From assembly GCA_002699085.1 (NCBI GenBank), contig PAAR01000024.1:1-44932 (forward strand): a stretch of 44,932 nt of DNA, in the 5' to 3' direction. This DNA comes from Micavibrio sp. (GTDB taxonomy: Bacteria > Pseudomonadota > Alphaproteobacteria > Micavibrionales > UBA9664). The notes beneath the pieces were generated by a model. That model saw only the letters and a list, made by a program, of their open reading frames with translations, had not been told where the DNA came from and did not search any database. Below, one piece after another: positions 38,639-44,136 of the stretch. The translations under genes and the position numbers were made by a program. Positions within the stretch are counted from its first letter, which is position 1; every line of letters begins with the position of its first letter.

Positions 38639-39988
38639 TTAGCGTGATATATGAAGGTTTGATAGTTCTGTGCTGATCCGCTCGAAAGCCTCGATCAAAT
38701 CGTTTTGAGAGGGCGCATCTATATAGCGTGTTTCATCACTAGCGCAGCGACGGTAATAATCTTTAGTCGTATTGTTAATGTTTGATGTGAAGGTGATTGT
38801 GTATATTAAAATACCTTGTGCCTTCATATTCTCGCATACATCTTCAAAGCGTCGGTTAAGATAACTTACATTCACGCCTTTTGAGTTGTATTGTTGATAG
38901 GTTCCATAGGCCCCGTAATAAGGGGAGATCGTATTGTCACCATCGGTCATCATTAAAACGGCCTTTTGCCATTTATCATCTTCCCAAGATGCGCCTTCTC
39001 TAAAAGGAAACTCGGGAGATAATAAACGGTAGCCCCAAACCATCCCCGTATTACCATGTGTATTTCCCTGTGCTCGGAACTCTTGTATGCTATCAAGTAG
39101 TTTTTGACGATTTGATGTGAGCGGTTGTATATAGCTGTGGCTGCATTCATAGTTTGGCCCATAATTATTGTTATAATATTGCCAGTAATATCTGATATCG
39201 CTACTCTGTGAGCCTTGAAAAGTATGGCGGTACATATTCCACATCCAACCATCTTCGTAATTTTCTTCATCGTCTGGATTGTTGCGTGCCAGTACACAGC
39301 CAGCCCATTTATTAAAACTATCGGCTTCATATTCTAAATTATAAGGATTGTTAACAAAGGCATCATCATAGTTTGTGCCATCTTCATTTTTACCTAAGCC
39401 ATAAGGCCCGACATTAACGCTTGCTGAAAATGGTACGATGCCAATTTTGACACTGTCTTCATCACTTGTACGATCATAAAGAATATTAACAAAATTTGTA
39501 GCTGCCGTGCGCAAGGCACCTATATTATTATGGTTAGACATTGAGCCCGTAACATCAACAACCATCGCAACTTCCAAACCTCTAACTTCACGAGTGACTT
39601 CTGTGAGACAACTGACGTTTAGGTGGTCTTGCCCTAATATACGCATGAAGCTTGTGTCAACTCGCGCATTGGCCGTTACTGAAATAAGATTGTTATTAAT
39701 GATAGGGGGCTCAATCGTTACAGTGCCAAACTCATCTTCTGGATAATTGGCCGTCATATAGGCTTGTAAGCGTTCTTCTAATTCTGTCTGTGTGCCGATT
39801 GAGCTGCCAACAGCAAGTGTTGCGGCATCAAGGGCTTGGCACATGCGGTTTTTTACAAGATAGGCCTTCGTTACATCAACGGCCATACCTGCACCGCCAA
39901 CAATTAAAGGCATCATAAAGCCAAAAGTAACAGCAACCGCACCCGTTGTACTGGCTAGAAATATTTTTAAGATATCTTTGTTTAGCAT
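38639..39988 (-). CDS. tadG: TadG-like protein with a von Willebrand A domain
   Basis: A 449-aa protein. The N-terminal Tad helix (FLASTTGAVAVTFGFMMPLI) resembles a pseudopilin, but T instead of E stands at +5, so cleavage is doubtful. A vWA domain begins at about residue 137 (VAMVVDVTGSMSNHN, a MIDAS-type metal site) and continues with AVLMMTDGDN and CENMKAQGILIYTITF. The middle carries Tyr/Asn/Trp-rich insertions. TadG is thought to anchor the pilus base or act as a tip adhesin-like protein in the periplasm. It overlaps tadF by 7 bases. Confidence 0.88.
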   Translation of the reverse strand: MLNKDILKIFLASTTGAVAVTFGFMMPLIVGGAGMAVDVTKAYLVKNRMCQALDAATLAVGSSIGTQTELEERLQAYMTANYPEDEFGTVTIEPPIINNNLISVTANARVDTSFMRILGQDHLNVSCLTEVTREVRGLEVAMVVDVTGSMSNHNNIGALRTAATNFVNILYDRTSDEDSVKIGIVPFSASVNVGPYGLGKNEDGTNYDDAFVNNPYNLEYEADSFNKWAGCVLARNNPDDEENYEDGWMWNMYRHTFQGSQSSDIRYYWQYYNNNYGPNYECSHSYIQPLTSNRQKLLDSIQEFRAQGNTHGNTGMVWGYRLLSPEFPFREGASWEDDKWQKAVLMMTDGDNTISPYYGAYGTYQQYNSKGVNVSYLNRRFEDVCENMKAQGILIYTITFTSNINNTTKDYYRRCASDETRYIDAPSQNDLIEAFERISTELSNLHISR

Positions 39989-40533
39989 GGAGAGCCCTCC
40001 ATAGGTACAAAGGCATTGCTGCGCCCTCTGACATAAGATACTTCTTTTAGATCAAAATGGCCTATAAGCTGTCCTGTGAAATGCGGCGTGAATCGGTATT
40101 TTGTGGTTACTCTTATAAAGCCTTCATTTATTGCCCCAAGCTTATCAAGATCATTAATCTCGTCATTATTTTCTTCCATTAATGGCGTGGTATGTTCCCA
40201 GCAAACATTGTAATCGTCGTCACTTTCGATACGTATGCCTTGGATATCAATACCTAGATTATCCCCTTCGTAAGGGTCTATAGCGAGGCGTGCCGCCATG
40301 ACAGCTTGTTCAATTTCTGTCTGAGAAATGCTGCGCTCTCTAGCCAGTAGGTCAGAGGTGACTTGTGAGGCTGAAATTATTTTTTGATTAAGGACAAGTG
40401 CGTTGCCTAAATCAAACATGGCTAATGTTACTGTAATGATTAGTGGGAAAATTAATGCCGCTTCAATCGCAGCCAGCCCACGATTGTCTTTGTAGAAATT
40501 CATGATGCGTTTATTAAAATCTATATGGCTCAT
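39982..40533 (-). CDS. tadF: TadF-like minor pseudopilin
   Basis: A 183-aa pseudopilin. The likely CpaA site is after G19 in KDNRGLAAIEAALIFPLI, with glutamate E24 at +5. The hydrophobic helix is followed by a periplasmic domain (ASQVTSDLLARERSISQTEI, RVTTKYRFTPHFTGQ) with a few cysteines. TadE/TadF proteins are minor pilin-like subunits needed for Flp assembly. It overlaps tadE by 20 bases and tadG by 7, so all three are coupled. Confidence 0.85.
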   Translation of the reverse strand: MSHIDFNKRIMNFYKDNRGLAAIEAALIFPLIITVTLAMFDLGNALVLNQKIISASQVTSDLLARERSISQTEIEQAVMAARLAIDPYEGDNLGIDIQGIRIESDDDYNVCWEHTTPLMEENNDEINDLDKLGAINEGFIRVTTKYRFTPHFTGQLIGHFDLKEVSYVRGRSNAFVPMEGSPC

Positions 40534-41041
40534 TTTTTATCACCATTGTAGACATAAGCGGCATTGCATTGTCAGTTGATTGACCACTAAGAAGAGGGCC
40601 TATTTGTAACGTCATAAAAGGATATCTGTAGAAACTACGAATAAGCACAACGTCATTTTCTTCACCTGGATTGAAGCCTGATGATTGTAACTGTCCATCG
40701 CTGTCAAAACTTGCCGTTGCGGCGGAAGCATTTGTAAAATCGTCGTCAGGCAGGTGGACGACTTCATAACGTATATTGTCGCAATTTAAGAAAAGAGAAA
40801 TATTGTCGCATAAGGTATCACGGAATAATCCTTCTGGGTTGCCATCTGATTGCAACTGCCCAGTGCGTATTAAACGAGCAGCTGAGCTTGTACCGCCTTC
40901 AAGTAGGGAAGATGCGGTGAAAATTAGACCAATTTCAAGAAGGCCTAAAATGAGCAATATAAAAGGCATGCCGACGAGTGAGAACTCGACAGCGGTGACA
41001 CCGTCCTCAGCGTTGAGAAATCGTCTTAAGCGATTGAACAT
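40514..41041 (-). CDS. tadE: TadE-like minor pseudopilin
   Basis: A 175-aa pseudopilin. The cleavage site is after G14 in NAEDGVTAVEFSLVGMPFIL, with glutamate E19 at +5. After the helix come LEGGTSSAARLIRTGQ, a TadE motif, and a periplasmic domain with two cysteines (DTLCDNISLFLNCDN). AGGG lies 5 bases before the ATG. It is the first gene of the minus-strand tadEFG group; 223 bases upstream begins the divergent sigma-54-driven gene. Confidence 0.85.
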   Translation of the reverse strand: MFNRLRRFLNAEDGVTAVEFSLVGMPFILLILGLLEIGLIFTASSLLEGGTSSAARLIRTGQLQSDGNPEGLFRDTLCDNISLFLNCDNIRYEVVHLPDDDFTNASAATASFDSDGQLQSSGFNPGEENDVVLIRSFYRYPFMTLQIGPLLSGQSTDNAMPLMSTMVIKNEPYRF

Positions 41042-41205
41042 GTTACCCTAACTTATTATTACCCTGACACTTTTTATAAGTGTCTATCTTCTAGGATACG
41101 TTCTATTCGTTAACGCATATTAATCTTTCAGCGACATTTGAATGAGTTTTGAATTTTATTTACATAAAAATTTATCTAGTTATTTCAGTTATTTATCAAG
41201 AAATA

Positions 41206-41222
41206 TTGGCACGGCGTTTGCA
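41206..41222 (+). promoter_or_regulatory. Consensus sigma-54 (-24/-12) promoter
   Basis: TTGGCACG (41206-41213), four bases, TTGCA (41218-41222) matches the sigma-54 consensus TTGGCACR-N4-TTGCW at every fixed position; the GG and GC pairs are ten bases apart. Transcription would start near 41233, about 30 bases before the ATG at 41265. Upstream activator sites were not identified in the AT-rich sequence to the left. Confidence 0.75.
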
Positions 41223-41264
41223 TAACTATTTTCCGAGGTTCAATTTTAACGTTAGGAAGATAAA

Positions 41265-41588
41265 ATGACACAAGCACCAATCAATCAAGATGTCCAATAC
41301 CATGAAGTTAAATACATCATTGATAAAACCTATGAGCAGCGTAATCTTACGCGCCACAAGGTAAGTGAATATAGAGCTTTAAAAGCCGTTAGAAATGCGC
41401 CAGAGCTTTTGTTGTTAAAGCAGCAAATTAAACGCAGTTTTGGTTTGTATAGACTGTATCAGCGCCAAATGCAGATGATGACTAAAGCTTATTTGGATAA
41501 TTTGCGCCAAGCACGTGCAACGTATAGTGCTTCATATAAAAGACCTGCAATCACTCTGGTTAAGGAAAGCTTTCAAGTGAGTGCTTAA
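41265..41588 (+). CDS. Unknown 107-aa basic helical protein under a sigma-54 promoter
   Basis: A 107-aa soluble protein without signal or membrane helix. It is rich in Arg, Lys, Gln and Tyr, with likely long helices (VKYIIDKTYEQRNLTRHKV, ALKAVRNAPELLLLKQQIKR, LYRLYQRQMQMMTKAYLDNL). The basic, amphipathic make-up suits a nucleic-acid or protein-binding role. I recognise no family. AGGA about 8 bases before the ATG is a good ribosome site. It lies divergent to tadE behind a consensus sigma-54 promoter, the only one I found in the window, so it is probably made under a specific signal such as nitrogen status or motility/attachment control. Confidence 0.65.
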   Translation: MTQAPINQDVQYHEVKYIIDKTYEQRNLTRHKVSEYRALKAVRNAPELLLLKQQIKRSFGLYRLYQRQMQMMTKAYLDNLRQARATYSASYKRPAITLVKESFQVSA

Positions 41589-41678: not shown

Positions 41679-41828
41679 ATGAAAACCGCCCAAGATAAAT
41701 CCATTGAAGATGCTGTGTTTGATGAAAACACAGAAAAGAAGATTCATTACAGTATTATTGCTATTCTTGTGACTGTTCTCACTGCTTGGGGCTTGGCTAT
41801 TTTATTTTGTGCTAAGAGCACCTTATGA
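41679..41828 (+). CDS. 49-aa single-helix membrane peptide coupled to the DMT gene
   Basis: An ATG at 41679 opens 49 codons. The polar, acidic N-terminus (MKTAQDKSIEDAVFDENTEK) is followed by a hydrophobic helix (about residues 23-44: HYSIIAILVTVLTAWGLAIL) and a short CAKSTL tail. Its TGA stop overlaps the ATG of the transporter gene by four bases (ATGA). The order and overlap suggest a small partner or leader of the transporter. No family is recognised. Confidence 0.6.
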   Translation: MKTAQDKSIEDAVFDENTEKKIHYSIIAILVTVLTAWGLAILFCAKSTL

Positions 41829-42787
41829 GAGGCTATCTGCATGCATTGAACTGGGTGATATTGATTGGGGCATGTAATGCTCTTTTTAAAATATTCGTCG
41901 CCTTGGAAATACATCCAGTGATTGTGATATGTCAGTCAATGCTCTTTGCAGGGCTTATATTACTATTGCTTGCGGGTCCAGGGCGTTTAGCAAAAGATGC
42001 GATTACTTCACCCCACAGTTGGTATTATGGGTTCTGTTATCTGATATCGACCTCAATTTTTGTGACCGCAATGCATTATATTTCAGCAACACAAATGAGT
42101 TTGTTGATTAAAGCTGTTGTGCCGATCAGTCTTATTGTTTCTGTTTTTTGCTTTAAGAGGCATTTAGATAGAACAGGGTGGGCGGGCTTTGTTTTGGTTC
42201 TTATCGGTTTATTCTTTGTTGGATTGGAAATTGAGCCTCGGGTGTTTTGGATGGTCGTTGCACTGGTGCTTATTTTCTCACTCTTTGAGACCTTGCAGAT
42301 GATGATCTCTGATATTCATTCCAGCAATAATAAAGCGCGTAGAAGTGTGAGAGAAAGTATGCGTGTGACGGGTATGGTTTTAGCTATCACCGCTCTTTTA
42401 TTTTTATTGGTGTGTTTAGGTGGTGCTGTCGGTGTTGAATATATGGGGTTAAAACATGGCGTGTTACCGAATATTGCTGATTTCATTAATCCATGGAGCT
42501 TTATCATGGCCTTTGTCTATGGTGTTTTTGGACTATCATTTATTCGCTATTCAGAATTTGTGGCAAATCGTGAAATAAAGTTCGAAAATTTCTTAGCAAT
42601 GACATCATTATCGGTTATCACAACTTTGTTCTTTGAGTGGCTGTTATCTGTATACGGGTTTCTCGAATTTAAAGGTCTAAGCTCTTTAGAGTTGATCGGG
42701 GGCAGTATAATGATTGTCGGTAGCGCAGCCGCTATTTACGCACGAGCCAAAGCTAATGACGGAACTATTATGCGTGTAAGTCGTTAG
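41825..42787 (+). CDS. DMT-superfamily (EamA-like) transporter
   Basis: A 320-aa inner-membrane protein with about ten hydrophobic helices arranged as two halves, as in the drug/metabolite transporter superfamily. In the first half, FVTAMHYISATQMSLLIKAV and VPISLIVSVFCFKRHLDRTG correspond to the EamA end segment. In the second, SFIRYSEFVANREIKFENFL and GGSIMIVGSAAAIYARAKA do. A longer central loop (ISDIHSSNNKARRSVRESMR) is on the cytoplasmic side. The substrate is unknown; members export amino acids, nucleosides or metabolites. No ribosome site of its own is needed given the ATGA overlap. Confidence 0.75.
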   Translation: MRGYLHALNWVILIGACNALFKIFVALEIHPVIVICQSMLFAGLILLLLAGPGRLAKDAITSPHSWYYGFCYLISTSIFVTAMHYISATQMSLLIKAVVPISLIVSVFCFKRHLDRTGWAGFVLVLIGLFFVGLEIEPRVFWMVVALVLIFSLFETLQMMISDIHSSNNKARRSVRESMRVTGMVLAITALLFLLVCLGGAVGVEYMGLKHGVLPNIADFINPWSFIMAFVYGVFGLSFIRYSEFVANREIKFENFLAMTSLSVITTLFFEWLLSVYGFLEFKGLSSLELIGGSIMIVGSAAAIYARAKANDGTIMRVSR

Positions 42788-42822
42788 TCTATTACAAATT
42801 TACCAATTGAAAGGAAATTGTA

Positions 42823-43260
42823 ATGTCTAATAAAACATCAGAATTAAAAATGCTTTTAACGCGTTTAGTGGATAGCTATGATGGCTATAAAGAAGCTGCT
42901 GAAAAGGCATCTCAAGAACGCCACGTTAGAATGTTCACAGATTTGTCTGCAGAGCGTCACCAAGCCGCTTTACTAGTGCAGGATTATCTTACACGTCAAG
43001 GTGAAGATGTTGATCTTGATGGCTCGAAAATAGCCGCAGCACACCGCTTCTTTATGGACATCAAAGACAAGCTAGATGACGATGATGATGAAGCATTATT
43101 AGAATCTATTATCACTGGTGAGAGCGAGTTACTTAGTCGCTATCGTGATGCAACTAAGGATGCGAAATATGATCCAGAATTGCTGGATGCATTGAAAAAG
43201 CAGTATCAAAAGATTGAATCTAATCTTGCCCTTATCCAAGCAAAAGAAAAAGCCGCATAG
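42823..43260 (+). CDS. PA2169/DUF2383-type four-helix-bundle protein
   Basis: A 145-aa soluble helical protein. LTRLVDSYDGYKEAAEKA, MFTDLSAERHQAALLVQDYL, SIITGESELLSRYRDATKD and LLDALKKQYQKIESNLALI form four helices with spaced Glu and His, as in the ferritin-like DUF2383 family, commonly linked to stress. A metal site is possible but not shown. AAAGGA lies 7 bases before the ATG. A terminator follows 30 bases after the stop. Confidence 0.83.
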   Translation: MSNKTSELKMLLTRLVDSYDGYKEAAEKASQERHVRMFTDLSAERHQAALLVQDYLTRQGEDVDLDGSKIAAAHRFFMDIKDKLDDDDDEALLESIITGESELLSRYRDATKDAKYDPELLDALKKQYQKIESNLALIQAKEKAA

Positions 43261-43290
43261 AATAGGTGAAGTAATATAGAATACAAAGAG

Positions 43291-43314
43291 AGCGGGCATA
43301 TGTCCGCTTTTTTT
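43291..43314 (+). terminator. Rho-independent terminator after the DUF2383 gene
   Basis: AGCGG (43291-43295) pairs with CCGCT (43303-43307) around GCATATGT, with further G-U, CA/TG pairs inside, and is followed by seven T (43308-43314). It is the clearest terminator in the window. Confidence 0.75.
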
Positions 43315-43334
43315 GTTTGTCTGGATATAAAAAG

Positions 43335-43363
43335 TTTACACAAAGAAAAGCCACCGTGATAAA
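43335..43363 (+). promoter_or_regulatory. Probable promoter of the HAD gene (leaderless geometry)
   Basis: TTTACA (43335-43340), 17 bases, GATAAA (43358-43363), which ends 5 bases before the ATG at 43369. No Shine-Dalgarno precedes this ATG. It lies just after the terminator of the preceding gene. Confidence 0.45.
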
Positions 43364-43368
43364 ACCAT

Positions 43369-44136
43369 ATGCACGTGAAAATGAAAAGTAGATTCACTAT
43401 GAAAAAAGTTAAATGGGTTATATTCGACTTAGACGATACATTACATGAATTTTCCACAGCCTCTCGTACAGCTATGGAGATGGTGTATCATTATCTTCAT
43501 GAAGAATTTGGCATTTACCCAGATGATGCTAGAGAAGCATATGCTGCGATATTGAAAGAAGGGCAGTCAACCCATTTTGTGGAAGACATTCCTTCTCGTG
43601 TCTATCGGAGACAACGCTTTGAGAAACTATTCGATAGATTTTCTCTTATCTACCATATTCATTTAGACCGTTGTTTAGACGTGTACGACGATTCCTTAAT
43701 GGAGGTAATGACGTTAAAGGAAGGTGCGCTTGAGATACTGCAAGAATGTCAAAAACATAAACTTAATGTTATGGTTGTTTCTGAAGGACCAAGAGATGCC
43801 CAAAAGAAAGCTATAGAGAAGCTCGGTATCGCATCGTATGTAAATCGTGTTTTCACATCTTCACAGTGCCGTATGCATAAAGCGAACGGCCTTTTTACCC
43901 ATGCTTTAAAAGAAGTGGGCTGTTCACCTGATGAAAGTATCGTCATTGGTGACAATCCAGAACGAGACATTAAACCTGCTCAAGCGTTAGGTCTCTTAGC
44001 TATTCTTGTTACAACAAAAGCCGCGCCAGAAAATATGCCCTTTGTCGCTTCTTTAAAAGAGCTCGCAGACAGGCTTCGTACAGAAACACAGGATAATGTC
44101 TTCCCTATGCCTCTTGCTGCGAATGTTCTTGAGTAA
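43369..44136 (+). CDS. HAD-superfamily hydrolase
   Basis: A 255-aa phosphatase-like enzyme. D20 and D22 in IFDLDDT are the nucleophile and general acid; VVSEGPRDAQ at about residue 140 is the motif II serine/threonine position, and IVIGDNPERDIKPA at about residue 196 holds the metal-binding acids. A helical cap sits at about 30-110. The substrate is unknown; phosphoglycolate- or nucleotide-phosphatase-like activity is possible. The start at 43369 agrees with the promoter; ATGs at 43381 and 43399 remain alternatives. The stop lies directly against the broken tRNA-Glu. Confidence 0.8.
   Translation: MHVKMKSRFTMKKVKWVIFDLDDTLHEFSTASRTAMEMVYHYLHEEFGIYPDDAREAYAAILKEGQSTHFVEDIPSRVYRRQRFEKLFDRFSLIYHIHLDRCLDVYDDSLMEVMTLKEGALEILQECQKHKLNVMVVSEGPRDAQKKAIEKLGIASYVNRVFTSSQCRMHKANGLFTHALKEVGCSPDESIVIGDNPERDIKPAQALGLLAILVTTKAAPENMPFVASLKELADRLRTETQDNVFPMPLAANVLE

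Follow-up and report, generated by a model that had tools for sequence, protein, structure and literature searches.

A gene for a 107-amino acid (aa) protein, located beside the Tad pilus genes in the window (the whole 44,932-nucleotide stretch of Micavibrio sp. DNA that was analyzed), is preceded by a predicted sigma-54 promoter (table 1). The protein is one of an undescribed family, found mostly in Micavibrionales, whose members are small and basic, with a predicted two-helix fold. The family, with its links to CtrA and to XRE regulator–enzyme pairs, is a more surprising result than the promoter. We give somewhat better than an even chance to a model in which the family is tied to the CtrA/flagellar program, the tad-adjacent copy is driven by sigma-54 and FlbD, and its product is a regulator or adaptor in the swim-to-attach phase.

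Table 1. Features of the region between tadG and the end of the 107-aa gene (positions in the window).
Feature	Position	Strand	Evidence
tadG	38639-39988	-	
tadF	39982-40533	-	
tadE, divergent neighbor	40514-41041	-	PF07811 at 1.4e-9; synteny kept in sister genome
TTAA-N6-TTAA, candidate CtrA site for tadE(FG), ~70 bp upstream	41110-41123	.	conserved in sister-genome alignment
-24/-12 sigma-54 promoter element TTGGCACGGCGTTTGCA	41206-41222	+	exact consensus match, kept in sister genome
Expected transcription start, ~12 bases past GC	41233	+	inferred from sigma-54 promoter geometry
Ribosome-binding site AGGAAG	41254-41259	+	sequence
107-aa basic two-helix protein ORF, ATG start	41265-41588	+	ortholog, paralog, 61 family members, AlphaFold hairpin
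Codons 8-26, conserved N-terminal core QDVQYHEVKYIIDKTYEQR	41286-41342	+	18/19 residues same in ortholog

The preliminary description claimed a consensus -24/-12 element with the required GG-GC gap, and this holds exactly. The element has 0 mismatches to TTGGCACRNNNNTTGCW, with the GG (41208-41209) and GC (41220-41221) 10 bases apart, and contains the TGGCAC-N5-TTGC core that marks sigma-54-dependent promoters. It is the sole exact match in the window, where ∼0.004 are expected, and one of two in the whole ∼1.89-Mb genome (∼0.19 expected; 0 for a reversed-pattern control). Forty-two bases separate it from the ATG of the 107-codon ORF.

The gene and its promoter are conserved in one further genome of the same genus (G001). 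Its ortholog encodes a protein of 98 aa that is 41% identical to the 107-aa protein and is likewise divergent from tadE, so that the order of promoter, gene, and tadE is retained in the sister species. The corresponding promoter, TTGGCATGGCTTTTGCA, lies 37 nt before the ortholog's ATG. With 15 of 17 bases identical, the element is the best-conserved block of the region between tadE and the 107-aa gene and the only intergenic stretch with at least 14/17 identity. When the two intergenic regions were shuffled preserving dinucleotides, the observed scores were reached in 0 of 3,000 shuffles for each. The match to the consensus could be a chance resemblance, with an ordinary promoter serving the gene, as a consensus match alone does not prove function and the site was chosen as the best looking among 45 kb. 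Nevertheless, the low number of exact matches expected per window, the retention of the element at the same position within a diverged intergenic region, and the failure of shuffles of either genome to reach the observed score make this very improbable. On sequence evidence, the element is a real, conserved sigma-54 promoter, and sequence likewise supports putative regulation by sigma-54 of this single small gene beside tad. This tad-adjacent sigma-54 copy was found in two species only. Synteny with G001 is limited to the tad side of the window and differs beyond the small gene, where genes for an EamA transporter, a DUF2383 protein, and a HAD protein (41825-44136) correspond in position to a 1,539-codon ORF (L022 9302-13921). 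An ORF of 49 codons (41680-41829) includes a hydrophobic stretch, and its stop overlaps the start of the EamA transporter ORF at 41825 (ATGA); the two are possibly translationally coupled.

The ORF that encodes the 107-aa protein is genuine. Codons 8-26 differ from those of the ortholog by eight synonymous changes while 18 of 19 residues are retained, which argues for selection at the level of the protein in this part of the ORF. The basic, helical character and good ribosome site previously ascribed to the gene are borne out by a pI of 10.1, an AlphaFold-predicted helical hairpin, and the AGGAAG sequence just before the ATG. In the model, two long helices are antiparallel, and residue blocks within positions 11-80 have mean pLDDT values of 86-97. 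The statement that the protein could be assigned to no family stands for public libraries, as there is no significant match in Pfam, NCBIfam, PHROGs, or PDB sequences, but fails in that profile search uncovers a definable family. A match to NCBIfam SidA (E = 0.23) falls far short of the cutoff and was dismissed; Foldseek matches of the hairpin (ING N-terminal domains, CdsO, and others) all have E > 0.1 and are generic coiled coils. A profile search of PDB sequences with the small-protein family returned nothing below 0.088. From its size, charge, predicted fold, and context, we take the protein to be most probably an adaptor or regulator in the cytoplasm, where it would act via its helical hairpin.

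Members of the family were recovered with profiles of increasing depth. A two-row profile identifies a paralog of 125 aa in the window genome. Of 142 genomes from the order, 21 have members according to a three-row profile and 36 (18 of 54 genera) according to a 20-row profile. Profile searches of the retrieved loci yielded 61 members, the weakest few of which are doubtful. The window protein matches the family profile with an E value of 2.9e-23, though it is itself part of the seed. Members are rare among 385 genomes sampled across the class. Outside the order, genomes G173 and G260 each have one member, accompanied by a divergent XRE regulator of the kind described below; two class-level matches outside the order, found with the two-row profile, have internal stops and were rejected. 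In a literature search that was not exhaustive, no paper describing the family or its CtrA and XRE-enzyme links was found. Twenty of the 61 members end in AA, a possible degron, and the window copy ends in SA.

Family members are strongly associated with CtrA boxes. The full CtrA motif of Caulobacter is TTAA-N7-TTAA (PMC4287350), and exact copies are within 200 bp upstream of 37 of 61 members, mostly 40-80 bp before the ATG, compared to 7 of 475 control genes from these loci and 3.9 of 61 in shuffles. Enrichment is confined to a spacing of 7, as spacings of 4-6 and 8-10 occur in 2-7 members. The 37 members with a box are related and do not represent independent events, but they come from many genera and different neighborhoods. 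In a second clade (L136-L149, L151, L155, and L163), the order of an rsmB-like gene, a pentapeptide-like gene, the family member, and a small MarR-like regulator is conserved, and most of these members have CtrA boxes. Upstream of fliF, flhF, and a flagellin gene of the window genome there are also N7 boxes. The family thus resembles the alphaproteobacterial CtrA regulon, with binding of CtrA predicted from the motif. In contrast, the window copy and its ortholog are exceptions with a sigma-54 promoter in place of the N7 box and the regulator: neither has an exact N7 box (best matches of 6/8 and 7/8, respectively), and the kind of XRE regulator described below is absent within 1.5 kb of either. 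Paralogs in both genomes of the genus (L074 and L055) retain both.

One kind of XRE regulator is located within 1.5 kb of 37 of the 61 members and is divergent in 32 of these cases. Regulators of this kind number 36 in 230 kb near members versus one in 363 kb further away, a difference somewhat favored by a profile that was seeded with 12 of these neighbors. The predicted structure of their C-terminal domain (mean pLDDT of 91.6) resembles the TrmB/TrmBL2 sensor region and phospholipase-D folds (Foldseek E of 3e-7 to 5e-5; TM-scores of ∼0.4). Among the 34 genes beside the regulator, 13 match the family of EgtD-type methyltransferases, 6 that of cyclodipeptide synthases, at least 4 GNAT acetyltransferases, and 1 each a formyltransferase and an LPG synthase C-terminal domain. 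A recurrent cassette (L055, L056-L058, L060-L072, L074, and L135-L170) is composed of an XRE regulator, an interchangeable enzyme that usually follows it, and a divergent small helical protein gene with a CtrA box. Such cassettes look like a family of chemical-signal systems. Like LuxI/LuxR-type pairs, the loci of relatives join a regulator with a sensor-like domain, a small-molecule-type enzyme, and a divergent gene. Unlike those pairs, they have an XRE regulator with a TrmB/phospholipase-D-like fold in place of LuxR, their enzymes are EgtD-like, cyclodipeptide synthase, GNAT, or formyltransferase-like, and their signaling role is putative; the window locus itself lacks such a cassette. If the cassettes do signal, they would amount to a novel form of chemical communication, one coupled to the cell cycle of Alphaproteobacteria.

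The repertoire of activators suggests how the sigma-54 promoter of the window copy could be used. The genome encodes RpoN (E = 1.9e-64) and has six matches to the sigma-54-activator domain, two of which are true bEBPs, NtrX and an FlbD-like protein. The GAFTGA motif is present in the FlbD-like protein and absent from NtrX and the other four matches, so the genome has RpoN and at least one activator with GAFTGA. The FlbD-like gene is between motA and flhA, inside a fliF-to-flhG flagellar cluster that includes fliF-fliG-fliN-motA-flhA-flhF. In Caulobacter, too, the motif is present in FlbD and missing from NtrX (PMC10274813). The -24/-12 consensus is also near identical to that of flagellar genes under sigma-54 and FlbD in Caulobacter crescentus. 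The window gene differs from those genes in that it is not a flagellar structural gene, adjoins tad, and has no ftr-type enhancer that we could find: the region between tadE and the 107-aa gene, the noncoding DNA to which the search was directed, has no second conserved block as a candidate FlbD enhancer, and a limited literature search returned no usable ftr consensus. Good sigma-54 sites are also upstream of genes for a 143-aa protein and, by Pfam, a lytic transglycosylase with an SLT domain and an ECF sigma factor, each of which has a sigma-54 site in G001 as well, and a weaker site is upstream of fliD. A looser sigma-54 pattern has 38 matches in G000 versus 7 for the reversed control and is too mixed on its own to define a regulon. 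The promoter of the ECF sigma factor gene (L001 1501-2156; ortholog L016) is perfect or near perfect in both species, from which a sigma-54 to ECF cascade can be predicted. Divergent to the 143-aa gene is a gene for an OmpR-type winged-helix DNA-binding protein, apparently without a receiver domain (L173 10756-11271).

Because the sole GAFTGA activator found is FlbD-like and encoded in a flagellar cluster, and other sites precede the transglycosylase gene and fliD, flagellar timing through FlbD is favored as the best explanation for expression of the 107-aa gene. Sigma-54 serves nitrogen control in many bacteria, the genome encodes an NtrY-NtrX pair, and, as it is ∼97% complete, another activator could be absent from the assembly. 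The promoter might thus respond to nitrogen or another signal through NtrX or a missing activator. We regard this as quite improbable given the lack of GAFTGA in NtrX, by which nitrogen control is disfavored, and given that the other sigma-54 sites precede fliD and the transglycosylase and ECF sigma factor genes rather than nitrogen genes. Of the links initially proposed for the gene (attachment, nitrogen, or motility), motility is the one that gains from these data and nitrogen the one that loses.

Caulobacter FlbD control lies downstream of CtrA, so the N7 boxes of most members and the sigma-54 promoter of the window copy would both tie the family to one developmental program. We propose that family expression is linked to the alphaproteobacterial CtrA/flagellar program and that RNA polymerase with RpoN, remodeled by the FlbD-like activator, would transcribe the 107-aa gene. 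Expression would coincide with that of late flagellar genes, presumably in the motile, preattachment cell, and the product may then act through its hairpin as a cytoplasmic adaptor or regulator during the swim-to-attach phase. The order includes epibiotic bacterial predators. In M. aeruginosavorus, flagellar genes are expressed in attack phase and shut down once cells have attached (PMC3189940). Through this single gene, sigma-54/FlbD control beyond the flagellum becomes testable, and the family, until now uncatalogued, has a strong CtrA-box signature and recurrent sensor-regulator and metabolite-enzyme partners. A broader reading is tentative and, on balance, doubtful: that multicopy chemical-signal cassettes are present in Micavibrionales and in a few more Alphaproteobacteria. 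In these, an XRE regulator with a TrmB-like sensor would be combined with an interchangeable enzyme, whose product is a metabolite derived from an amino acid, and with a divergent small helical protein timed by CtrA. In this genus, one such small protein would have moved to tad under sigma-54/FlbD and would connect the output to the switch from motile to attached cells in a predator-like bacterium.

The location beside tad allows another interpretation of the protein. As described initially, tadE, tadF, and tadG are all on the strand opposite to the 107-aa gene. A role for the protein in the pilus is possible, and support for it is limited to adjacency. If adjacency to tadEFG reflects a direct functional link, the protein would be a Tad accessory factor involved in assembly, localization, or regulation. 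In both genomes of the genus, the gene adjoins tadEFG and is divergent from them, a member from a different genus (L057, G011) is ∼6 kb from tad genes, and in Bdellovibrio the flagellar sigma factor FliA controls the TAD operon (PMC5430801). But the protein has no homology to Tad protein families (no significant match in Pfam or NCBIfam), and nearly all other members are away from tad, beside XRE regulators or in the rsmB-guaA region. We therefore consider an accessory factor of the pilus unlikely and prefer an adaptor or regulator that is expressed with the flagellar program. Directly upstream of tadE, an inverted repeat (GACACTTTTTATAAGTGTC; 41066-41084) is a possible operator that is not seen in the sister-genome alignment. 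The candidate CtrA site of tadE(FG) has an N6 spacing, for which there is precedent in the N6 full CtrA site of Caulobacter podJ P1 (PMC4287350).
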